Below are positions 13,004 to 26,641 of a DNA stretch of 43,416 bases, in pieces (position 1 is the stretch's first letter; every line of letters starts with the position of its first letter). The translations under genes were made by a program, and so were the position numbers. The notes beneath the pieces were generated by a model, which did not search any database, had not been told where the DNA came from, and worked only from the letters and a program-made list of their open reading frames with translations. Origin of the DNA: an uncultured Nitrospiraceae bacterium (GTDB lineage: Bacteria; Nitrospirota; Thermodesulfovibrionia; Thermodesulfovibrionales; Thermodesulfovibrionaceae); assembly GCA_937139565.1 (NCBI GenBank), contig CAKZQH010000085.1:1-43416 (forward strand), read 5' to 3'.

Positions 13004-13629
13004 AAATAAAGAAATTCGAAGTAGGTCCCCTTTTTGTGAACTGTTATATTGTTTTTGACGAAGATACAAAAAAAGCATTTATAATTGATCCTGGTGATGA
13101 GCCTGATTTAATCTTAGATTTTGTTAAAGAAGAAGACTTAACCGTTGAATATATAATTTGTACGCATGGACATTTTGATCACATTGGAGCTGTGAGAGAA
13201 GTTAAGGATTACACCGGTGCTAAAGTTATATTACACAAAGGAGACCTTGATGTTTACAGGAATTCTCCTGCTATTGCCTTGGAGTTTTTTGGAATAGAAA
13301 TAGATTCCCAGCCTGAACCAGACAAGTTGATTGAGCATGAAGAGGTTTTAAAAATAATAGATAGAGATGTTAAATTTATTCACACTCCTGGACATTCACC
13401 TGGTAGTTTTTCTATATATGTTGAAGGGTTACTTTTTACTGGGGATACTCTTTTTGCAGGCTCAGTGGGCAGAACAGACCTTTTTGGTGGAAGTATGGAG
13501 GAATTACTGAAATCATTAAAGAAAATTGCATCATTACCTGAGGACACAGAGGTTTTACCTGGCCATGGTCCAAAGACTAAGATTGGAATAGAGATAAAAT
13601 CTAATCCTTTTTATCATGAAGTTTTTTAA
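13000..13629 (+). CDS. Metallo-beta-lactamase-fold hydrolase, glyoxalase II-like
   Basis: The 209-residue cytoplasmic protein contains the di-metal motif THGHFDHIG (H56, H58, D60, H61). It also has the downstream His in HTPGHSPGSF, the bridging Asp in LFTGDTLFAGSVGRTDL and the C-terminal LPGHGPKT histidine. The layout matches the short YcbL/GloB-like hydroxyacylglutathione hydrolase family, which cleaves thioesters such as S-lactoylglutathione. The C-terminal glutathione-binding domain of classical GloB is absent, so the natural thioester is unclear. It overlaps murJ by 4 bp upstream and the PhnD-like gene by 14 bp downstream. Confidence 0.88.
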   Translation: MKIKKFEVGPLFVNCYIVFDEDTKKAFIIDPGDEPDLILDFVKEEDLTVEYIICTHGHFDHIGAVREVKDYTGAKVILHKGDLDVYRNSPAIALEFFGIEIDSQPEPDKLIEHEEVLKIIDRDVKFIHTPGHSPGSFSIYVEGLLFTGDTLFAGSVGRTDLFGGSMEELLKSLKKIASLPEDTEVLPGHGPKTKIGIEIKSNPFYHEVF

Positions 13630-15265
13630 ATTATTTAGTTTATTTTTATTAATTCTTTTTTTCCTCTCCTGTAGTAAAACGACTGAAGAAGTATCCAATC
13701 GTTTACAAAGTGAGGAACCTAAAGGAGAGCCTTTGGTTATTGGTGTGCTGCCTGATGAATCTCCCCGGATAATTTATGAAAAACTCTATCCCCTTAAAAA
13801 ATTTATTTCTGACAAATTGAAAAAACCGGTTCTTATCGAGATAGCCAAGAATTTTAAAGATTTAGAAAATAAAATTAAAGAGGGAAAAATTCATCTTCTT
13901 ATTATAGATCCAACCATATATTGTGAACTTAAATGGACGATGGAAAATAAGATATTTCCTATTTTGAAACCAGAAGGGGGAACAGCTGAGACAAGAAGTG
14001 TATTTGTAACTAAAGAAGGAAAAAACATTGAAAAGATTTTTGATTCATTGGGCAAAAGACTTGCTTTAGGAGATGAAAAATCTTCCTTTAGTTATCTTAT
14101 TCCTATTTCAATGTTAAGAGATGTAGATATATCCCTTAAAGATTTTAAATCTGTTGATTTGCTCGAGAAGGAGCAAAGAATAGCTCTTTCCATATTAATC
14201 GGAGATCACGATATTGGAGCTATGAGTGAAATAACAGCCAATAAATATGTCAGTAATGGTTTGAAAGTCATAAGATATTCAGAGCCTACACCACGATTCT
14301 TGATTGCTCATACTCAAATTATGAACAAGGAGGATATTGAAAAAATTAAAATAAGTCTTACTACTCAAAAAGATGAATCGGTTTATAAGTCTTTAGGAGT
14401 GTCTAATTTTTTAATTGCAGAAGACAGGGATTTTGATTATGTAAGGGTGCTTATTAGAAACTTAAGCGGGAGAGATTACATTAAATATGGGGAAAACACA
14501 ATAAAAGTTGCTATTTTGCCGCTTTATAGTCCAATTACAATATACAAAAGATACGATCCTCTTATGAGATATCTATCAGAGAAAACAGGTTACGAATTTA
14601 AGTTAGTAATTCCAAAAAATTTTGAAGAATTTATAGAGATTGTTTCTAAGGGCAAGGTCCATTTTTCCTATCAGAATCCTTATGTTTTTTCAATTGTCTC
14701 TAAAAAATATCCAATAAAACCAATTGTTGTAACTATTGGAGAAGACTGCACAACAGAGGAAGGCATATGTGGGAATGAAAAGTTTAGAGGAATAATAATT
14801 ACAAGAAAGGATAGTAAAATCAATAAGTTGGAAGATCTTATAGGGAAAAAAATAATGATTGTGTCTCCAACTTCAGCTGGTGGTTATTTATCTCAGAAGC
14901 TTTACTTAGAAAAAAAAGGTTTTAATCTTCATAGAGATTTTAAATTCATTGATGCAAAAAGACAGGAAAAAGTCATAATCGGAGTTTATAAAGGAGAAGC
15001 TGATGCTGGATTTATAAGAGAGGCAGCTCTAAGTGTTTGGTCTGATGAGGTAGACATATCGAAGTTAAAAATTCTCGCATATGGAGAATATCTTCCCAAT
15101 TGGCCCTTTGCTGTTGTTGATAATAGAAACCTTGAATTAACTCAAAAAGTTAAAAAACTAATTTCTGAACTTGATGATAAGAACATTCTCAAGAAAGCTA
15201 AGGTGAAAGGCTTTAAAGAGGCAACAGATGAAGATATGGTGTTACTTAAAAAACTCGGTAATTAA
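13616..15265 (+). CDS. Lipoprotein with two tandem PhnD-like substrate-binding domains
   Basis: The 549-residue protein starts with a lipoprotein signal ending in FFLSC (Cys19 lipidated). Two PhnD-like periplasmic binding domains follow. The first (about 38-285) starts LVIGVLPDESPRIIYEKLYP; the second (about 293-545) starts IKVAILPLYSPITIYKRYDP. Only the second carries the full family signature (FSYQNPYVFSIVS, then a GKKIMIVSPTSAGGYLSQKL region); the first is more divergent. No ABC permease or ATPase is adjacent. Instead the gene overlaps a histidine kinase gene by 38 bp, so it probably acts as the extracytoplasmic sensor of that two-component system rather than in uptake. The ligand is unknown; phosphonate, phosphite or another small anion is possible by family. 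Confidence 0.85.
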   Translation: MKFFKLFSLFLLILFFLSCSKTTEEVSNRLQSEEPKGEPLVIGVLPDESPRIIYEKLYPLKKFISDKLKKPVLIEIAKNFKDLENKIKEGKIHLLIIDPTIYCELKWTMENKIFPILKPEGGTAETRSVFVTKEGKNIEKIFDSLGKRLALGDEKSSFSYLIPISMLRDVDISLKDFKSVDLLEKEQRIALSILIGDHDIGAMSEITANKYVSNGLKVIRYSEPTPRFLIAHTQIMNKEDIEKIKISLTTQKDESVYKSLGVSNFLIAEDRDFDYVRVLIRNLSGRDYIKYGENTIKVAILPLYSPITIYKRYDPLMRYLSEKTGYEFKLVIPKNFEEFIEIVSKGKVHFSYQNPYVFSIVSKKYPIKPIVVTIGEDCTTEEGICGNEKFRGIIITRKDSKINKLEDLIGKKIMIVSPTSAGGYLSQKLYLEKKGFNLHRDFKFIDAKRQEKVIIGVYKGEADAGFIREAALSVWSDEVDISKLKILAYGEYLPNWPFAVVDNRNLELTQKVKKLISELDDKNILKKAKVKGFKEATDEDMVLLKKLGN

Positions 15266-16829
15266 ATCTATTTTAAAAAGTATTCAAAAATTAAGCATAG
15301 GCTGGAAAATATTTTTTTCCTTTCTTGCTCTTTTTCTTGTTATAATGCTCTCTATTAATATCCTCATACTTAACTATCAAAAGAAGTCTTTAAGAAGTCA
15401 GATACATAGCAATATATCAATTTTACTGGATAATCTATCTAAGGATTTAATAGATCACATTATTTTTTTCGATCCTTTAGCAATTGATGAGAAATTATCC
15501 TTATCTATGAATAGTCCAGGAATGGAATACATTTTATTAGCTGATAAAAAAGGGAAGATTGTTGGTCATAGCAACAAAAACATGCTTGGAAGCTTTATTG
15601 AGTTGGACTATAGAAAATGGCAATTTGTTGATGAGAATGAAATTCTTCATATTAATATCCCTATTATTTCTGGAGATAGTTATTTTGGAATTTTAAGAGC
15701 TGGTATTTCTGAAAACAAGATTAACTCTTATATTGACCAAGCAACTAAGAATCTTAAAAACTACATCTATATATTAAGCTCCCTTTCTTTGCTTTTAACG
15801 GTAGTTTTGTCATTTATGCTATCAAAAACTCTTACTAAACCGTTACAAAAGCTGAAAGATAAAATGTCGAGTATTCAAACAGATAAGCTTGAACTTTGTG
15901 AAAATCCAACTAATGTCCTATGTAAAGATGTTTTTAATTGTGATAAAACTGATTGTCCTGCCTATGGGAGAGAAAGATGCTGGTTTATTAGTGAAGCTAA
16001 GGAGAATTGTAAAAAATGTCACAACACAGACTGCAAAGACTGCTATGTATATAAAATCTCCTGCGGTGACGAAATAGGATATTTAATAGAGACTTTCAAC
16101 GAAATGATTGTAAAATTAAAGGAATCCTTCGAAGAGCTTGAGAAAACAACAAGGGAAAAATTAAGGTTAGAAAAGTCCTCTGCAATGGCAGAAATGGCAA
16201 TGACCGTTGCCCATGAAATAAAAAATCCTCTTAATGCTATTAAAGCTTCTACTGCCTATTTGAAATCTAACTTTGAGGGAGAGGTTATTAAGGAGTTTTT
16301 ATCTATAATTGACAGAGAAACGGAAAGATTAAATGAACTTATCACCAGTTTTTTATCCTATGCAAGACCTGTTCCTTTAAAATATGAAAAGGGAGATGTA
16401 AATTATCTTTTAAAGGATGTTATTAAACTGATAGAGGCTGAAGTTAAAGATGAAAAGAAGTATCTTTATACTGATTTTGACTCTTCTATTCCTGAGTTTT
16501 ACTTTGACCACCACCAGCTAAAACAGGCAGTGCTTAATCTTCTCGTTAATGCTATCGATGCTACGGAAGAGGGAGATACAATTTGGTTAAAAACGGAAAA
16601 AACTAATGGTAATTTGAGAATTATAGTAAAAGATACAGGAGTTGGAATTCCAGAGGAGTTAAAGGAAAAGATATTTGAGCCCTTTTTTACAACTAAAACT
16701 ACAGGTTCAGGACTTGGTCTTGCCTGTGTAGAGAGAATTATAAAGGATCATGAAGGCACCATTAAAATGACAAGCTCAATAAATAGTGGAACCGAATTTG
16801 TTATTGAAATACCAATTAAGGAGAACTAA
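15228..16829 (+). CDS. Membrane sensor histidine kinase with Cys-rich HAMP insert
   Basis: The 533-residue kinase has TM1 at about 27-49, an extracytoplasmic sensor region of about 125 residues and TM2 at about 178-200. HAMP helix 1 is LTKPLQKLKDKMSSIQ. A cysteine-rich insert with ten Cys (residues 224, 232, 238, 243, 251, 261, 264, 269, 272 and 279) follows, then HAMP helix 2 (IGYLIETFNEMIVKLKE). The kinase core has the H-box His329 in MTVAHEIKNPLNAIKAS, the N-box LNLLVNAIDA, and G-boxes KDTGVGIPEEL and GSGLGLACVERI. It lies between the double-PhnD lipoprotein (38-bp overlap) and the NtrC-type regulator (2-base gap). The insert could bind a metal, haem or Fe-S cluster, or be redox active. 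The start sits inside the upstream gene; no later ATG precedes TM1. Confidence 0.9.
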   Translation: MKIWCYLKNSVIKSILKSIQKLSIGWKIFFSFLALFLVIMLSINILILNYQKKSLRSQIHSNISILLDNLSKDLIDHIIFFDPLAIDEKLSLSMNSPGMEYILLADKKGKIVGHSNKNMLGSFIELDYRKWQFVDENEILHINIPIISGDSYFGILRAGISENKINSYIDQATKNLKNYIYILSSLSLLLTVVLSFMLSKTLTKPLQKLKDKMSSIQTDKLELCENPTNVLCKDVFNCDKTDCPAYGRERCWFISEAKENCKKCHNTDCKDCYVYKISCGDEIGYLIETFNEMIVKLKESFEELEKTTREKLRLEKSSAMAEMAMTVAHEIKNPLNAIKASTAYLKSNFEGEVIKEFLSIIDRETERLNELITSFLSYARPVPLKYEKGDVNYLLKDVIKLIEAEVKDEKKYLYTDFDSSIPEFYFDHHQLKQAVLNLLVNAIDATEEGDTIWLKTEKTNGNLRIIVKDTGVGIPEELKEKIFEPFFTTKTTGSGLGLACVERIIKDHEGTIKMTSSINSGTEFVIEIPIKEN

Positions 16830-16831
16830 TT

Positions 16832-18172
16832 ATGCCCAACATTCTTTACATAGACGATGAAATAAGTGCTTTAAAGGCAATATCTGCTATTCTTAGAAAA
16901 CAAGGTTACAATGTTTACGTTGCAAAGAGTGCCGAAGAGGGAATTTCTATTCTTAAAAACACTCAATTTGAACTGCTACTGCTTGACTACCGATTACCCA
17001 AGATGGATGGTATAGATGTTTTAAGATGGCTTAAACTAAGTGAAATAAAAATTCCCACTATAATGCTCACTGCTTATGGAACAATAGAAAAAGCTGTTGA
17101 AGCAATGAAACTTGGTGCTTATCACTATTTAATTAAACCTGTGGATACAGAACTTCTTCTCAACTTAATTAAGGAAGCCATTGAAAAGACTCAAGGTCTT
17201 AAGTCCTTAATTACCGATGAATCACCTTTTCCTGAAATTATAGGAAAAAGTAATGCAATGAAAGAAGTATTTCACATAATGCAGATGGTAGTAAAAAGTA
17301 ATGCAAATGTGTTGATTACAGGAGAATCAGGTACTGGAAAAGAGCTTGTAGCAAGAGCAATCCATAAGAATTCTCTAAGAAAATCAAAACCTTTTGTAGT
17401 CGTTGACTGTACCACAATACCAGAAAATCTTCTTGAAAGCGAATTATTTGGTCACGAAAAAGGAGCATTTACAGGCGCAACTGAGAGAAAAACTGGTCTT
17501 ATAGAACTTGCTAATGAAGGCACTGTTTTTCTTGATGAAATTGGTGAATTGCCGATGGTTTTACAAAAGAAACTTCTTAGATTTTTACAGGAGAAAGAGA
17601 TTTTAAGAATAGGAAGCACGAAAAGAATAAAGGTAGATGTGAGAGTAATTTCAGCGACCAATAGGAATCTTGAAACGGCAATAAAAGAGGGCGCATTTAG
17701 GGAAGACCTTTACTGGAGATTAAACGTAGTAAGAGTAATTCTCCCGCCTCTTAGAGAGAGAAAAGAGGACATACCCCTCTTGGTCAGGCATTTTTTAGAT
17801 AAATATTCGAGAGAAAACAATAAACCAATTCCTCAACTTGAACCAGAGGTGATGGAAGCTCTTGTAGGTTATGATTGGCCAGGTAATATCAGAGAACTTG
17901 CAAATGTTATTGAAAGAGCTGTGGTTCTTTCTCCATCAGGTGTGATTTCAATGAAACATCTTCCAAAAAGAATTCAGGAAAAAAGTGGGTGGACATTTTC
18001 AAATGAAAACTCCTTTAATCTTCTTGAAGTAGAAAAATCCTTAATACTTAGAGCTTTAAATTCTACAGGCTGGAATCAAACAAGAGCTGCTGAGATGTTA
18101 GGTATTTCGAGAAAACAGCTGAGAACAAAGATGAAAAATCATGGACTTCTATCTCAGTTAGAGGAGGATTAA
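16832..18172 (+). CDS. NtrC-family sigma-54-dependent response regulator
   Basis: The 446-residue regulator has an intact receiver: acidic pair D8/D9, phosphorylation site D52 in LLLDYRLPKMDG, TMLTAYG and the Lys of LIKPVDTE. An AAA+ sigma-54 interaction domain follows, with Walker A GESGTGKE near 164, the GAFTGA loop near 211 and FLDEIGELP. It ends in a Fis-type helix-turn-helix (TRAAEMLGISRKQLRTKMKN). GAFTGA shows it should activate sigma-54 promoters. It follows the Cys-rich kinase by 2 bases with an AAGGAG ribosome site, so the two are cognate partners. No sigma-54 promoter was found next to this cluster, so its targets probably lie elsewhere. It converges on hemC with only a 2-bp gap. 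Confidence 0.95.
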   Translation: MPNILYIDDEISALKAISAILRKQGYNVYVAKSAEEGISILKNTQFELLLLDYRLPKMDGIDVLRWLKLSEIKIPTIMLTAYGTIEKAVEAMKLGAYHYLIKPVDTELLLNLIKEAIEKTQGLKSLITDESPFPEIIGKSNAMKEVFHIMQMVVKSNANVLITGESGTGKELVARAIHKNSLRKSKPFVVVDCTTIPENLLESELFGHEKGAFTGATERKTGLIELANEGTVFLDEIGELPMVLQKKLLRFLQEKEILRIGSTKRIKVDVRVISATNRNLETAIKEGAFREDLYWRLNVVRVILPPLRERKEDIPLLVRHFLDKYSRENNKPIPQLEPEVMEALVGYDWPGNIRELANVIERAVVLSPSGVISMKHLPKRIQEKSGWTFSNENSFNLLEVEKSLILRALNSTGWNQTRAAEMLGISRKQLRTKMKNHGLLSQLEED

Positions 18173-20398: not shown

Positions 20399-21201
20399 AG
20401 GGGCTTATGAAAACTTTCTGTTAAAAGATTTATACCAAAAAAGCCAAAAATTACAAGAAGAAAGGCAAAAATGGTAAGATAGGCAGCCTTTTTCTTTCTC
20501 CAGTCCCCTTTTATTCGAAGATAGAAAATAGAAAGATATACTACCCAAGTTAAAAAACTCCATATTTCTTTTGGATCAAAGAGAAACCCAAGAATATTAA
20601 GATACTTAACTAATCCAACTAATAAAGCTATTGTGTATATTGGAAAACCCCAAAATATCAGTCTGTAGTTTATTTTATCTAAAACTTCAAGACTGGGAAG
20701 GATATTGCCAATACCACCAAATTTTTTATTTTTTATTGCTTTTTCATGGATAAGATATAAGATACTAAAAACAAAGGCGAGACTAAAAAGGGCTATACCA
20801 AAAACTGCCATCAAAGCATGCATATCAATCCAAATACTTTTAAGTTCTGGTTTTATCAATGGAATGTTTCTTGAAAAAAAGGCACTTATGAACATAAATA
20901 AGAAAATTATTATTACAGAAAAATTTAGAATCTTCCCTTTATATGAAAACCAAAGCCAGATTGAAGTTATCATTATACTCCAGGTAAAGAAAGAGGTTGC
21001 CTCATGCATTGAAAAAACAGGAGCCTGTGATGATTTTATATATCTGATTATTAAGTATAGAGTATGAAGCGCAAATCCAGAAAAACTTACTACCAAAACA
21101 GACTTATCGAAGTCATCCTTTTTTCTAAAAATGCCTGCCATGCTTAGCAGAAAACCAGCAAAATAAAGAGTAAGGGCAAGTTCAAAAAAAATAGTTCCCA
21201 T
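20395..21201 (-). CDS. CcsA/HemX-family cytochrome c assembly-type membrane protein
   Basis: The 268-residue protein has about eight transmembrane helices and the CcsA/HemX family features: histidines in SMHEATSFFTW and DMHALMAVFGIALFSLAF, and the conserved segment FDPKEIWSFLTWVVYLSIFY near the C-terminus. The long periplasmic WWD loop of true CcsA/CcmF haem-handling proteins is missing, so this is closer to Bacillus HemX, found with hemA and hemC and thought to affect glutamyl-tRNA reductase level or cytochrome c assembly. It overlaps hemA by 4 bp and shares one base with the stop of the MobB-like gene (TAATG). Confidence 0.82.
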   Translation of the reverse strand: MGTIFFELALTLYFAGFLLSMAGIFRKKDDFDKSVLVVSFSGFALHTLYLIIRYIKSSQAPVFSMHEATSFFTWSIMITSIWLWFSYKGKILNFSVIIIFLFMFISAFFSRNIPLIKPELKSIWIDMHALMAVFGIALFSLAFVFSILYLIHEKAIKNKKFGGIGNILPSLEVLDKINYRLIFWGFPIYTIALLVGLVKYLNILGFLFDPKEIWSFLTWVVYLSIFYLRIKGDWRKKKAAYLTIFAFLLVIFGFFGINLLTESFHKPL

Positions 21202-21872
21202 TAGAAACAGCCAAGCTCACATTTTCGGATTTTTATCTTAAGTTCATTTGCAAGCCTGCCAACTTCAATATAGGGTATCTTAAGCTCTTCAGCAATTTTT
21301 CTTGCCTCTGCACAGGCAATTTTTCCATTATTACTTCTCTCTTTAAGGGCTTCTTCAATTTTTTTTCTCATTTCTATTTTTTCGATTTGCTCCATTATCT
21401 CCTCCGTTTCGTATTCCCATTTAATTACAATATCTGCTCTTTCCAAAACTTCTTTTGCAGATGGTTTATTGTTAGCATTATTTTTGTCAATGAATATTAT
21501 AACATCAGTTTCCATAGTTCTTACCAGAGAATTTCCTTCCACTAAAACAATCTTTTTTTGATTGGTCGCATAAAGATCATTTATTTTTGCTTTTAAATTT
21601 CTCGTAATTTCAGACAAATCTGCTTCTGTTGCTTTTACCCATATTACCATATCAGCACCAGCTTTTTTCATTCTATCTGTATCTTTTGATTTATGGTCAT
21701 GGTCAACAGGATCAATAATTATGCTTGAATAAAGAGATGTTTTTGTAAATTTAATACCTATTAGGGGTATATTTTTAAATTTCTGTTTTATTCTCCTAAT
21801 AAGATTTTCTGCAAGGGTGGTTTTTCCATCACCACTTTTTCCAGAACATATACCAATTGATAGCGTCTCCAT
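21201..21872 (-). CDS. MobB-like P-loop NTPase with C-terminal helical domain
   Basis: The 223-residue protein begins with a P-loop, GKSGDGKT at 11-18, in the context IGICSGKSGDGKTTLAENLI. The GTPase/ATPase fold resembles MobB of molybdopterin-guanine-dinucleotide synthesis (ADMVIWVKATEADL, KKIVLVEGNSLVR, ETDVIIFID). The last ~45 residues form a separate small domain, IACAEARKIAEELKIPYIEV followed by GRLANELKIKIRKCELGCF, which MobB lacks. A molybdenum-cofactor role is not certain. It sits at the head of ccsA/hemX-hemA-hemC (one-base overlap) and starts 2 bases after the stop of a PAS-like mini-ORF, suggesting coupled translation. The Cys residues near the C-terminus could bind metal. Confidence 0.7.
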   Translation of the reverse strand: METLSIGICSGKSGDGKTTLAENLIRRIKQKFKNIPLIGIKFTKTSLYSSIIIDPVDHDHKSKDTDRMKKAGADMVIWVKATEADLSEITRNLKAKINDLYATNQKKIVLVEGNSLVRTMETDVIIFIDKNNANNKPSAKEVLERADIVIKWEYETEEIMEQIEKIEMRKKIEEALKERSNNGKIACAEARKIAEELKIPYIEVGRLANELKIKIRKCELGCF

Positions 21873-22108: not shown

Positions 22109-22939
22109 TTATTTCTTTTTTACAACCATTACTGGACGGGATACGGTTCCTATTACTCTCTCTGTTACACTGCCCATGAAGAATTTCTCTATACCAGTTT
22201 TTCCATAGGTGCCCATAAATATGATTCCTGCCTGATTTTTATTAGCAGCATCAACAATTTGTTCAAATGGCTCACCCTTTGCCACTATTGTCTGCACTTT
22301 TAATCCTTCTCTTTCAGCAGACTCTTTAACTGTTTTTACTGCTTCTTCTGAGTAAGCTAAGTCACTGTCTCTTTTTGCAACTGAAACCGCAATAAGTTCG
22401 CTGTTAAATCTTTTTGCTGCTGCTATTGCCTCTGCTGCTGCCACATTGCTATATACCGAACCATCTGTGGCAACCAATATTTTCGCAAAGGTTAAAACAG
22501 CTCCAGTAGGCACTACCAGTACTTTGCATGGTGCATTGCCAATTACTTTTTTGCCAACTGCACCAAGCATAACACCCTTTTTACCGAGAATTATTAAATC
22601 AACGCTGTTTTTAATTGCCTCATCAATGATGTATTTATAAGGTTCAGGTCCTGTGTAACTTATAGTTTCGCACTTAACTTGAGCTTTTTCTGCAATAGCC
22701 TTTATCTCATCAAGTGCCTGCGCTGCTCTTTTTTCTAAAACATCAACAACCTGTGGAAGAGTTTCCACAAATTCTGCTGCAAAAACCGGTACTTCAGCAA
22801 CGCATATGGCATAAATTGTGCTTCCACAGGGTTTTGCAAGTTCGATAGCTGCCTGCACTGCAAATTTTGCTGCTTCTGACCCATCAGTGGCAATAAGAAT
22901 TTTATCTAACTTTGTCAATGGACATGCACCAATTGTCAT
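22109..22939 (-). CDS. Tandem universal stress protein (two UspA domains)
   Basis: The 276-residue cytoplasmic protein contains two UspA domains: about 10-145 (KILIATDGSEAAKFAVQAAI) and about 150-276 (KILVATDGSVYSNVAAAEAI). The second has the ATP-binding signature in MGTYGKTGIEKFFMGSVTER (G-2x-G-9x-G-S). The first has a modified version, LGKKGVMLGAVGKKVIG, that may not bind ATP. It is the last gene of the exporter/two-TM/Usp operon and is preceded by a strong GGAGG site. A role in sensing energy state or regulating the exporter is inferred from the operon only. Confidence 0.92.
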   Translation of the reverse strand: MTIGACPLTKLDKILIATDGSEAAKFAVQAAIELAKPCGSTIYAICVAEVPVFAAEFVETLPQVVDVLEKRAAQALDEIKAIAEKAQVKCETISYTGPEPYKYIIDEAIKNSVDLIILGKKGVMLGAVGKKVIGNAPCKVLVVPTGAVLTFAKILVATDGSVYSNVAAAEAIAAAKRFNSELIAVSVAKRDSDLAYSEEAVKTVKESAEREGLKVQTIVAKGEPFEQIVDAANKNQAGIIFMGTYGKTGIEKFFMGSVTERVIGTVSRPVMVVKKK

Positions 22940-22940
22940 T

Positions 22941-23687
22941 TTAGACCTCCTTTTTAACTTTTGCTTTCTTAGTAGAAAGCCCTAAACCCTCAAAAAGATA
23001 TAGCACCCCAAATCCATACCAAATTGTATATATAACATAAAAGGCAAGAAGACCTGTTGCAATACCTGCTTTTTCTGTAATTTTTACAGCAGTGATTCCA
23101 TAGAAGTTATAGGCTGGCTCAATTGCTTTGGTCATCACATTCTTTACGAAATTGGCATCTTCAGCTTTTTTGTCAAGTGTCAATCTCTTGTTTATAAGGC
23201 TTAGAGCATTGTGCCACTGTCTAAACATCTGTTTCATCTTTTCGTCATCGGTAACATCGTATTTTTTCTTTATAAATTCACCGTTGTTCTTATACATTTG
23301 GTCAGAGTCTTCAAGAGCTGCCATCATTAATGCTCCAAAATCACCTAAAATGCGAACCTTTGAGCCTTCAACTGTAACTTGGGCGCCGTTAATTGTAAAT
23401 ACTTTAGCAATTCTCTCAGCTCTTTTTTCAGCGTCACCTGGCTTGTCACCAGCTTTCTTGGCATCTATTGTAATATCTAAAGCCTTACCCTGATATTTTT
23501 CAACTTCCTTCTTTAATTTGGGAATTTGATATGCAGAAGCCTTAGCAAGTTTATTAAAAAGGTCATCGCTGTATTCAAGGCCATTCAGGCCTTCTCCGTA
23601 TATAGGAGCGAATATTAATATAAGCACTCCTACAAAACTAGCAAGTAATATTATTCCCCAAGTTAGATGTTTTTTGTCGGCTGCCAT
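22941..23687 (-). CDS. Unrecognised two-TM protein with large extracytoplasmic domain
   Basis: I do not recognise this 248-residue family. It has an N-terminal membrane helix (about 10-28, WGIILLASFVGVLILIFAPI), a mostly helical, charged domain of about 170 residues and a second helix near 208-235 (GLLAFYVIYTIWYGFGVLYL). A short basic tail ending KKAKVKKEV follows. The topology suggests a periplasmic domain held by two helices with both ends in the cytoplasm. A small beta region (VFTINGAQVTVEGSKVRIL) is followed by helices rich in Lys and Asp. It lies one base from the Usp start and one base from the exporter stop, with its own AGGAGG site, so it is almost certainly a partner of the exporter. 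Confidence 0.75.
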   Translation of the reverse strand: MAADKKHLTWGIILLASFVGVLILIFAPIYGEGLNGLEYSDDLFNKLAKASAYQIPKLKKEVEKYQGKALDITIDAKKAGDKPGDAEKRAERIAKVFTINGAQVTVEGSKVRILGDFGALMMAALEDSDQMYKNNGEFIKKKYDVTDDEKMKQMFRQWHNALSLINKRLTLDKKAEDANFVKNVMTKAIEPAYNFYGITAVKITEKAGIATGLLAFYVIYTIWYGFGVLYLFEGLGLSTKKAKVKKEV

Positions 23688-23688
23688 C

Positions 23689-24942
23689 TTATCCCTCCTC
23701 CTTAAAGGCTTTTAAATTTTTAAAGAAACTTCCAAAAACCCATAGAGCAAATCCTCCAACTGCTGCCCAGAACACAATATTTCCAACGAGCATTATGATA
23801 TCACAGGCTTCCTTTGATATGGACCATAACTCAAGGCTTCTGAGCTTATCCGGAACAACACTTGCTCTGTTTGCAAATCCTGCAAGAATTGTGAGAACCC
23901 AGAATCCTCTGATGACCATTCCAGGAACAACCTTAGTTGTAAGTGCGCCAATTTGAATTCCAATAAGTGAACCGAGAAGAAGTCCCATTGCTAAGGTATA
24001 GAAAACATAACCGTAAATTGCATACTGGGTAATTGATGAATATCCAGCTGTAAATATTATCTGAAGAATGTCGGTTCCAACCGTGGTAGGTGTAGAAACT
24101 CCAAGAACGTAGACAAAAAGTGGAAATGTCACAAAACCTCCACCAACACCCATAACTGCGGCAAGAAGACCTACTACAAAACCGCATATGGTAACAAAAA
24201 GCCAAGAAATCCTTCTTCCACCAAAGTCTTCATCAAAGTTTATCATAGGAGGGATATTGATTTTTTGAATGCTAATGGCAAGATTAGTTGTTGTCATTGG
24301 TCCGCCACCGTGAGCATCCACATGTCCTCCACCTTTGGATGCTTTTTTAAGCTTTATAAAATCCTTTAATCCGTAGAAACCCAGAAAACCAAGGATAATT
24401 GCATATATAATGCTAATGAATGCCTCGCTCATTACAGGGTCGGTGTTATAAATTGCTCTCTGAATGTAACCTCCAGTTGTAGCACCAACCACAGAACCAA
24501 GAACAAAGGCCACTGCAAGACCAACACACACATTTCCGAGCTTTTTGTGAATAACTGTACCCATGATTGCTTTAGCGAAAATATGAAATTGGTCTGTGCC
24601 TACTGCAAGAATACCTTTCACTCCAGCAGCCATCAAAGCAGGTGCAATAATAAATCCTCCACCTGCACCAATACAGCCTGTAATAAGTCCTGCTGCAAGT
24701 CCTACTGCGATAGAAGCTATAAAAATTGTGGTGGTGTAATGGGATGGTGCATAGGCTGATTTTCCACCTAAAAAGTCAGCAGCACCTAAAAAAGATACGA
24801 GAACAATTGGAGAAATGAGAGCAATCAAAATTAAGAGCCTCTTCTTGTTCTTAAGGATGTTGTCAGACATTTGTTTTTCCCACTTGGCCTGGTATATTGC
24901 ACCAGCCATCATAAGTTCGTAAAGTTTCCTTACCTTACTCAT
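23689..24942 (-). CDS. TauE/SafE (TSUP) family anion exporter
   Basis: The 417-residue membrane protein has the TSUP two-fold repeat, each half opening with a Gly-rich signature: GLITGCIGAGGGFIIAPALM in the first and LAAVMGVGGGFVTFPLFVYV in the second. About ten membrane helices are predicted. An N-terminal cytoplasmic extension of about 35 residues and a His/Gly-rich cytoplasmic loop between the halves (GGGHVDAHGGGPM) are visible. TSUP members export or import sulfite, sulfoacetate, sulfonates or related anions; sulfite or another sulfur anion is plausible in a sulfur-metabolising anaerobe but is an inference. It is the first gene of a three-gene operon behind a sigma-54 promoter, with a GGAGGAGG ribosome site. 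Confidence 0.9.
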   Translation of the reverse strand: MSKVRKLYELMMAGAIYQAKWEKQMSDNILKNKKRLLILIALISPIVLVSFLGAADFLGGKSAYAPSHYTTTIFIASIAVGLAAGLITGCIGAGGGFIIAPALMAAGVKGILAVGTDQFHIFAKAIMGTVIHKKLGNVCVGLAVAFVLGSVVGATTGGYIQRAIYNTDPVMSEAFISIIYAIILGFLGFYGLKDFIKLKKASKGGGHVDAHGGGPMTTTNLAISIQKINIPPMINFDEDFGGRRISWLFVTICGFVVGLLAAVMGVGGGFVTFPLFVYVLGVSTPTTVGTDILQIIFTAGYSSITQYAIYGYVFYTLAMGLLLGSLIGIQIGALTTKVVPGMVIRGFWVLTILAGFANRASVVPDKLRSLELWSISKEACDIIMLVGNIVFWAAVGGFALWVFGSFFKNLKAFKEEG

Positions 24943-25153
24943 TCCACAGCCTCCTCCTTTTAAATTTCTTGTTTTTAATTAAAGACTTTTACATTTACAC
25001 AAAACATTTAATTCCCTTTTTCTTTTCACCTCCCTTCTTTTTTTGTTTTTCAGACTTTTTGCTGAGTCTGTCAAACTCCTTCGGTTTAGAAAAGGTTATT
25101 GACACCAAAAGATCTTTCATTTTTTTTAAGACTTTTTTCATATGTAAAATTTA

Positions 25154-25170
25154 TGCAATTGATATGCCAG
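25154..25170 (-). promoter_or_regulatory. Sigma-54 (-24/-12) promoter
   Basis: The minus strand reads CTGGCATATCAATTGCA. It keeps the invariant GG and GC exactly 10 bases apart and matches the consensus TGGCAC-N5-TTGCW at nearly every key base (TGGCAt, TTGCA). Transcription would start about 12 bases downstream of the GC, near 25143, toward the exporter gene. The neighbouring activator carries the GAFTGA loop required at such promoters, which supports the call. Confidence 0.85.
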
Positions 25171-25221
25171 ATTTGGAAGTGAGATAATATAAAGAAAAAA
25201 TGTCGTCAAATAGTTGTCGAA

Positions 25222-25238
25222 TGCAACAGATTATTGCA
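25222..25238. promoter_or_regulatory. Promoter-proximal activator-binding dyad (UAS1)
   Basis: TGCAACAGATTATTGCA is a TGCAA-N7-TTGCA inverted repeat, and one further base on each side extends it to AATGCAA...TTGCATT. Its centre is about 62 bp upstream of the -24 element, a usual distance for an enhancer of an NtrC-class activator. A second, similar 17-bp dyad lies exactly 66 bp away. Confidence 0.65.
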
Positions 25239-25287
25239 TTTTTATGATTTTTTTAAAAAAGAAGTATATAAAATAAATAGTAAATGG

Positions 25288-25304
25288 TGCAACAAAATGT
25301 TTCA
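25288..25304. promoter_or_regulatory. Promoter-distal activator-binding dyad (UAS2)
   Basis: TGCAACAAAATGTTTCA is TGCAA-N7-TTTCA, one mismatch from the perfect dyad of UAS1 and sharing its first six bases. The 66-bp spacing from UAS1 is close to six helical turns, placing both on the same DNA face. It lies 7 bases beyond the stop codon of the activator gene. Confidence 0.6.
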
Positions 25305-25311
25305 GTTAAAA

Positions 25312-26604
25312 TTATGTGGCGATTTTATAATGTTTTAATTTGCGCTGAAGTTGTTGTCTGTGTATTCCAAGTAATTCTGCTGCTTTTGAAATATTTCCTC
25401 TGCTTTTCTGAAGGGCTGACCAGATTAACTCTTTTTCAAATGTATCTACGGCTTCCCTTAAGTTTCCCTGCGTTGATTTTTTTGAATGTGGTGTTTTTAG
25501 TAAATAGGCTGGTAAATCTTTAACGGTAATTTCCGCTGAAGAGGTAAATGCAATGGCTCTTTCAATAATATTTTCAAGTTCTCGTACATTTCCTGGAAAG
25601 GAGTGATTCATTAAAGCATCGAGGGCTTCCTCGGTAATACCTCTTATGGTTAAATCTTTTCTTTTATGAGCGTGTTTTTTTATAAAGAATTCGACAAGAG
25701 ATGGAATGTCCTCCTTTCTATTTCTAAGAGGAGGAATTTCAATATTAATTACATTTAAGCGGTAAAAAAGGTCTTCCCTAAAACTACCTTCTTTACAGGC
25801 TTTTTGAATATCCTTATTGGTAGCTGCAATAAATCTTACATCAACTCTTACGGGATGATTTCCGCCTATTCTTATAAACTCACCTTCTTGAATAACTCTT
25901 AAAATTTTTGTCTGGAAAAGAGCAGATACATCTCCTATTTCATCAAAAAATAGAGTGCCCTTATCAGCCCATTCAATAAGTCCTTTTTTAGTATAGTTTG
26001 CACCTGTAAAAGCACCCTTTTCAAATCCAAAAAGCTCAGATTCCAAGAGTGTATCTGGTATGGCTGTGCAGTTTATAACAATAAAGGGATTATCTTTTCT
26101 GTCACTTAATTTATGAATAGCCCTTGCCACAATTTCTTTTCCTGTTCCTGATTCGCCTGTAATAAGAACATTGCTATCAGTAAGAGCTGCCTTTCTTACT
26201 CCGCAGTATACATCCTCCATTATTCTACTTGTTCCAATTAGCCCTTCTATTTCTACCTTAGGCTTATCCTTAAAATTCTGGAAAATTTCTCTCATTGAAT
26301 TATCTTTAAGAGGTTTTTGAAGAAAATCAGTTGCTCCTAATTTCATAGCCTTCACTGCTAAGTTTACATTTGGTTTTCCAAAGACAATTACAGGCATGTA
26401 TTGTTTTAGTTCTATGAGTCTTTTTTCCCATCCTTCTGAGTCAATATCGAGAAAGGCAATATCATAGTTAGAAAAGGTCGCATTAGAGTTCGCTTTTGCT
26501 TTATTTGTTTTTCTAAGAGTTATTCCGATTGAGTCAAAAATTTCAAAAAGGCTCTTTGCTTCATCGGAGATTACAAGAACACTGAATGATCTTAAAAAAA
26601 CCAT
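25312..26604 (-). CDS. Sigma-54 activator with degenerate receiver domain
   Basis: The 430-residue NtrC-class protein has an N-terminal receiver-like domain (about 8-115), an AAA+ domain with GESGTGKE, GAFTGA and FFDEIGDVS, and a C-terminal Fis-type helix-turn-helix (NISKAAELLGIHRQQLQRKL). The receiver keeps a candidate Asp53 (FLDID) and the Lys of FLQKPL, but the acidic pair at strand 1 is reduced to SDE and the switch Thr/Ser position reads VFGKP. Phosphorylation may therefore be weak or absent. No kinase gene is adjacent. The location upstream of the exporter operon, the paired dyads and the sigma-54 promoter make that operon the probable target. The ATG has no ribosome site and lies next to a promoter-like sequence. 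Confidence 0.92.
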   Translation of the reverse strand: MVFLRSFSVLVISDEAKSLFEIFDSIGITLRKTNKAKANSNATFSNYDIAFLDIDSEGWEKRLIELKQYMPVIVFGKPNVNLAVKAMKLGATDFLQKPLKDNSMREIFQNFKDKPKVEIEGLIGTSRIMEDVYCGVRKAALTDSNVLITGESGTGKEIVARAIHKLSDRKDNPFIVINCTAIPDTLLESELFGFEKGAFTGANYTKKGLIEWADKGTLFFDEIGDVSALFQTKILRVIQEGEFIRIGGNHPVRVDVRFIAATNKDIQKACKEGSFREDLFYRLNVINIEIPPLRNRKEDIPSLVEFFIKKHAHKRKDLTIRGITEEALDALMNHSFPGNVRELENIIERAIAFTSSAEITVKDLPAYLLKTPHSKKSTQGNLREAVDTFEKELIWSALQKSRGNISKAAELLGIHRQQLQRKLKHYKIAT

Positions 26605-26611
26605 TGAGTTA

Positions 26612-26641
26612 AAAATAGAACATTTAAGGCTCTGTTGTCAA
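26612..26641 (-). promoter_or_regulatory. Sigma-70-type promoter of the sigma-54 activator gene
   Basis: On the minus strand TTGACA (26636-26641) is followed after 18 bases by TATTTT (26612-26617). The -10 ends 7 bases before the ATG at 26604, so the transcript would begin at or next to the start codon. The -35 is a perfect match; the -10 is 4 of 6. It overlaps the divergent mutS promoter region. Confidence 0.5.

Follow-up and report, generated by a model that had tools for sequence, protein, structure and literature searches.

A Predicted Sigma-54 Switch in Nitrospirota with a Small Protein as Its First Product and a Possibly New Motif Family

Introduction

A sigma-54 promoter, a pair of dyads and the gene of an NtrC-family activator lie side by side in the genome of an uncultured Nitrospiraceae bacterium, which raises the question of what this arrangement controls. 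The window, that is, the whole stretch of DNA that was analysed, is 43,416 nucleotides long. A sequence-only reading of it proposed a switch for an operon encoding an exporter, a two-TM protein and a universal stress protein (Usp). The parts named there are present, but the first gene below the promoter is an ORF of 48 codons that had been missed. The locus very probably represents a self-contained sigma-54 switch, predicted to consist of the activator, two dyads, the promoter, a near-leaderless small protein and then the exporter operon.

The switch itself is of a known type, since sigma-54 activators already control several operons for TSUP/PSE transporters of unknown substrate in Desulfovibrio vulgaris. 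According to the portions of PMC4641369 drawn on here, nine sigma-54 operons of that species encode transporters of the TSUP or PSE family, and DVU0110/DVUA0057 act on DVU0132-DVU0133. Both systems have NtrC-family activators and conserved binding motifs at the sigma-54 promoters of TSUP permease operons. The D. vulgaris regulators described in those portions are counted as two-component regulators, with a motif common to two activators, one of which has further targets, whereas in the window a regulator with a degenerate receiver stands beside its one target, which begins with a small gene. Against this background, it is possibly the motif family of the small protein that is new; the same portions of PMC4641369 make no mention of the motif. 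TSUP proteins are abundant but functionally unresolved in sulfate reducers (PMC5840216).

The Sigma-54 Promoter and Its Dyads

A promoter of the -24/-12 type, TGGCATATCAATTGC, can be read directly on the minus strand at 25155..25169. The sequence-only reading had given its GG-N10-GC spacing as exact, and so it is in TGGCATATCAATTGCA (minus strand, 25169-25154), which stands near the form TGGCA-N6-TTGC. In a pattern scan, TGGYA-N6-TTGC matches only this site in the 43-kb window; genome-wide, there are 43 matches versus one for the reversed pattern. The sigma-54 gene is present in the same genome (PF04552, E 1.4e-59). From the -24/-12 geometry, transcription is predicted to start at 25143 on the minus strand, 12 nt below the C of the GC and 2 nt above the ATG of the small ORF.

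Two 17-bp dyads are located upstream and are predicted activator sites: the proximal dyad TGCAACAGATTATTGCA at 25222..25238 and the distal dyad TGCAACAAAATGTTTCA at 25288..25304, both given in plus-strand reading. Their centres are 62 and 128 bp above the GG and their starts 66 bp apart, as had been claimed. The earlier description of the dyads as phased is only approximately right, as 66 bp corresponds to 6.3 turns of 10.5 bp; the 63-64 bp found in relatives make about 6.0-6.1 turns. When the 142-nt stretch upstream of the promoter is shuffled 20,000 times, one shuffle yields an exact TGCAA-N7-TTGCA and 46 yield a one-mismatch version.

The exact dyad is found at four places in the 2-Mb genome. 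The other three (C11, C53 and C76) were considered as further targets of the activator and rejected, since a sigma-54 site is absent at the right distance. A genome scan for the dyad near sigma-54 promoters, which had been suggested as a check, gives at most one hit per genus genome, always at this locus. The exact dyad and promoter pattern is found in 10 genus genomes, once in each, with none for the reversed-pattern control; the genomes missed have one-letter variants of the dyad or lack the site, and nothing else was found for the combined pattern elsewhere in the genus genomes. The predicted switch is a dedicated local one, since the combined pattern is restricted to this locus.

Within the genus, the promoter and one or both dyads lie between the activator gene and the following gene in 15 of 16 genomes, the window's included, and the proximal dyad is centred 60-62 bp above the GG in all 15. 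Where the exporter operon is retained here, in ten genomes including the window's, the distal dyad lies 63-66 bp above the proximal one and 124-128 bp above the GG. Conservation in operon-keeping relatives had been named as another check; taking as such the nine with the exporter gene next after the activator here, all nine retain both dyads, the promoter and the spacing. The distal dyad is absent from the five genomes without the exporter operon at the locus. Averaged over all pairs in the 15-genome alignment, identity reaches 0.97 in the promoter core, 0.94 in the proximal arms and 0.88 in the distal arms, versus 0.63-0.70 in the dyad spacers and 0.47-0.48 in the DNA between the elements. 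Other families of the order, compared at loci whose activators have about 57-63% identity, show a TGCA-N9-TGCA-like dyad 60-63 bp above the GG of a sigma-54 site. Because of this footprint, the single occurrence and the same dyad position in other families, it is very likely that the activator, the dyads and the promoter are linked.

The dyads are thus predicted binding sites, conserved in sequence, position and adjacency to the activator gene. Since the sites are predictions and action at a distance is possible for NtrC-family proteins, the dyads might instead serve another regulator, such as a repressor or a global factor, while the adjacent activator works elsewhere; dyad and activator, though together at the locus, may be linked by adjacency alone. 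This reading is extremely unlikely. The pair of dyad and promoter stands beside this activator wherever it is found, it also accompanies the orthologous activator in other families, and the dyads are placed and paired as is usual for activator sites at sigma-54 promoters.

The Activator

The adjacent gene (25312..26604, minus strand) encodes an NtrC-family activator (EBP) of 430 aa with a degenerate, receiver-like domain, an AAA+ domain and a Fis-type HTH. The AAA+ domain belongs to the sigma-54 interaction family (PF00158, E 3.5e-69), and the C-terminal HTH matches PF02954 (E 5.2e-15). GAFTGA can be read directly and Walker motifs are present, in agreement with the earlier description of a GAFTGA activator. 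Orthologs with 77-85% identity are found in 15/15 other genus genomes, and one with 61% in another family.

The activator gene has a predicted sigma-70-type promoter of its own, TTGACA-N18-TATTTT (26612..26641, minus strand), with its TTGACA and -10 region conserved across 16/16 genus genomes. Because this promoter ends 7 nt above the ATG, the activator mRNA is predicted to be near-leaderless. Throughout the genus, the end of this promoter lies a few bases above the ATG (26604-26641), and leaderless mRNAs may be common.

How the activator is controlled depends on the reading of its N-terminal domain. One reading is that it is a true response regulator with an unlinked kinase, making the locus an ordinary two-component switch. 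All 13 aligned orthologs share D53 and K97, and the operon of the relative L168 is followed by genes for a histidine kinase and a receiver; both observations would fit. However, the acidic pair of the receiver is replaced (ISDEA, also ISEEA, SNEA and AQHA) and its conserved Thr/Ser position has changed; at 24.3 bits, the domain also falls short of the Pfam cut-off of 30.2, and a canonical receiver is not recognised. Likewise, no kinase gene adjoins the activator gene, which is flanked by a mutS-like gene and the target operon. The absence of a kinase partner, as stated in the sequence-only reading, is upheld to this extent; the kinase in the window (15207-16826) stands beside a different activator about 8 kb away. 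The two-component reading is therefore somewhat unlikely. Given a receiver-like domain without the canonical acidic pair and a kinase that does not adjoin, control by a ligand or a protein partner is likelier than control by phosphorylation. The region around the window's kinase (13598-18169) also encodes a phosphonate-type binding protein and a second NtrC-type activator, and has the look of an ordinary two-component cluster.

Similar to NtrC-family EBPs with paired sites, the activator has a GAFTGA-bearing AAA+ domain and a Fis-type HTH, and two dyads lie upstream of its -24/-12 promoter. It differs from them in its receiver, in the kinase not being alongside, and in having apparently one promoter per genome. 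The tie of one activator to one promoter, unusually firm by comparative data, offers a clean system for the study of kinase-free activators.

The First Gene

The first gene (24995..25141, minus strand) encodes a basic protein of 48 aa, MKKVLKKMKDLLVSITFSKPKEFDRLSKKSEKQKKKGGEKKKGIKCFV, with orthologs in 16/16 genus genomes, all matched by a profile of the small protein. In its reading frame, codons 2-27 give a pS of 0.665 and a pN of 0.071, a ratio of 0.107, while pN/pS in the other frames is 1.1 and 3.7. By this measure, the small ORF is protein-coding and under strong purifying selection. A context-blind search with the profile finds relatives beside activators and TSUP/Usp genes in other families of the order.

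In 15/15 aligned loci, the ATG follows the C of the GC at a distance of 13-16 nt. With transcription starting 12 nt below that C, the leader would be only 2-5 nt long, and a near-leaderless mRNA with leaderless translation of the small ORF is predicted. Outside the genus, the near-leaderless arrangement is lost: the ATG is farther down, at a distance from the GC of 18 nt to about 110 nt or more, which would make for a longer leader.

In an AlphaFold2 model, the protein has helices at residues 2-17 and 21-36; the first ten residues reach a pLDDT of 91, and the second helix is of low confidence. Comparison with PDB sequences returns weak matches only, the best (E 0.0018) being an antidote protein of the CopG/Arc type.

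A short, basic ORF with a variable tail at the very 5' end of a transcript resembles a leader peptide, and the switch might serve the exporter operon only, with the 48 codons being a leader peptide or a conserved untranslated leader. This is very unlikely, since purifying selection at the amino-acid level is seen in the right frame only, the ORF is kept in five genomes where no exporter follows, and its homologs occur on their own or as fusions with Usp and receiver domains. A conserved structure in the leader RNA was likewise rejected, as its folding is no better than that of shuffled sequences (z -0.45).

The Exporter Operon and Genomes Without It

Below the small ORF, a Shine-Dalgarno sequence AAGGAGGAGG can be read directly at 24950..24959, ahead of the gene of a TauE/SafE (TSUP) family permease of 417 aa (23689..24942; PF01925, E 9.6e-35). 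This is followed by a conserved membrane protein of 248 aa (22941..23687), the earlier 'two-TM' protein, which travels with this type of TauE and is matched by no Pfam or NCBIfam model. The last gene encodes a tandem universal stress protein of 276 aa with two Usp domains (22109..22939; PF00582, two stretches). All of these features are on the minus strand. A MobB-like P-loop protein is encoded at 21201-21872, below the Usp gene, and a similar-looking gene directly follows the activator in genome G006 (L035).

As the predicted target of the switch, the exporter operon holds in ten genomes, but the switch persists without it in five. In G003, G004, G007, G011 and G015, the activator, the proximal dyad, the promoter and the small ORF are kept, while neither the distal dyad nor a TauE operon after the small ORF was found; for G015, whose contig extends only about 0.4 kb beyond the small ORF, the absence of TauE applies to that stretch only. 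Because it is kept in these five genomes, the small protein, not the exporter, is by sequence comparison the most constant of the predicted targets. A single loss in the five exporter-less genomes would fit the activator tree, and since they may represent one event, the link between the distal dyad and the exporter counts as a single observation.

Four of the five exporter-less genomes have a distant TauE elsewhere (57-59% identity), while in G007 TauE is degraded to fragments. The distant copies were considered as targets of the switch and rejected, since neither dyads nor a sigma-54 site lie upstream of them. At L064 (about 2480-2620), L065, L066 and L067, the distant TauE has repeated TTATAACAATAT elements and a sigma-70-like promoter, and is situated directly below the apparent end of a histidine kinase gene, which indicates a different control.

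In G006 (L096), the small ORF has moved beside a Usp gene and has one dyad, TGCAACATAAAGTTGCA. The would-be -12 element is broken there, with GT in place of GC, which suggests decay or a different promoter. In G036, a genome from another family, the activator module is present twice (G036:C28 and G036:C40; L036 and L037). One copy is accompanied by Usp and a distant TauE; in the other, TauE is interrupted by a GntR-like reading frame and the membrane-protein gene contains stop codons.

Proposed Mechanism

The activator would be made from its own conserved promoter, predicted to be of the housekeeping type, and would bind both 17-bp sites of the form TGCAA-N7-TTGCA, which lie some 86 and 152 bp upstream of the predicted start. 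We infer this binding from conservation, position and adjacency. Through DNA looping, the activator's AAA+ ring would then reach the sigma-54 polymerase and open the promoter by hydrolysing ATP; looping and ATP-driven opening of sigma-54 promoters are established for this activator family. Transcription would start 2-5 nt above the ATG of the small ORF, giving a near-leaderless first gene, and run on through TauE/SafE, the membrane protein and the tandem Usp. The most likely role of the small protein, itself a guess, would be that of a docking or adaptor peptide that couples the activity of the exporter and the Usp to a signalling layer.

The FAEAGE Motif Family

A wider family with the motif FAEAGE[FHY]DTARE includes the small protein as a divergent member, with FSKPKEFDRL in place of FAEAGEFDTAR; the profile, the two-helix shape and the neighbourhood all agree with this assignment. 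The consensus of the wider family is close to MKKLxKKxEDxxxAITFAEAGEFDTAREIL, and a profile based on it has matches in 100 of the 296 phylum genomes. Small stand-alone proteins carry the motif, and so does a protein with two tandem copies; in Usp-like proteins it is N-terminal or inserted, and in CheY-type receivers it forms the tail.

Eighty named loci were fetched by the motif peptide alone. TauE is present in 51 of them, an NtrC-type activator in 58 and a Usp gene in 51. At 49 of the 80, TauE lies within 3 kb of the motif (median 771 bp), and all 52 of the TauE genes within that distance are on the motif's strand. The loci come from Nitrospirae, Desulfobacteraceae, Desulfobulbaceae, Thermodesulfobacteriaceae and a few others, mostly as metagenome bins.

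No model for the small protein or the motif family exists in Pfam or NCBIfam, the motif strings tried had no match in open papers, to which the search was confined, and no relatives were found in viral contigs. Among the closest known families is one of repeats: canonical members of the motif family weakly resemble TPR_4 (PF07721), with a similar predicted two-helix shape, but differ in being a single unit and score below the Pfam cut-off (E 0.07-0.2), so that they do not count as members; the genus form of the small protein is not matched by TPR_4. A larger FAEAGE protein has a Usp fold, by comparison of its model with PDB Usp structures of the UspA family (3s3t, 1jmv). In Usp-like FAEAGE proteins, the motif of about 28 residues is N-terminal or inserted, while the protein in the window consists of the motif alone.

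Tentatively, these contexts may point to an undescribed FAEAGE module of about 28 residues as the basis of signalling around the sulfur-type exporters of Nitrospirota, Desulfobacterota and other groups, with the module coupling Usp and receiver proteins to TSUP. In the genus, a private sigma-54 switch would always yield the small-protein form first, from an mRNA translated without a leader. A hidden first gene leads to a widespread short module without a Pfam or NCBIfam entry, and the linkage of the motif to TSUP, Usp and sigma-54 activators provides a handle on transporter control in anaerobes. Many of the anaerobes carrying it are probably sulfur-metabolising, and the TSUP family is poorly understood.

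Two further arrangements of the motif can be noted. A CheY-type receiver in the window's own genome ends in the motif KLELTMSAIAFAEEGEFDTARKIMENKENK (G000:C5:14348-14437, L140; also L170:5346-5804), and near-identical motif-tailed receivers are present in G002 and G012. At L152:3454-3795, a protein of 113 aa contains the motif twice and is encoded directly above two motif proteins and a TauE gene.
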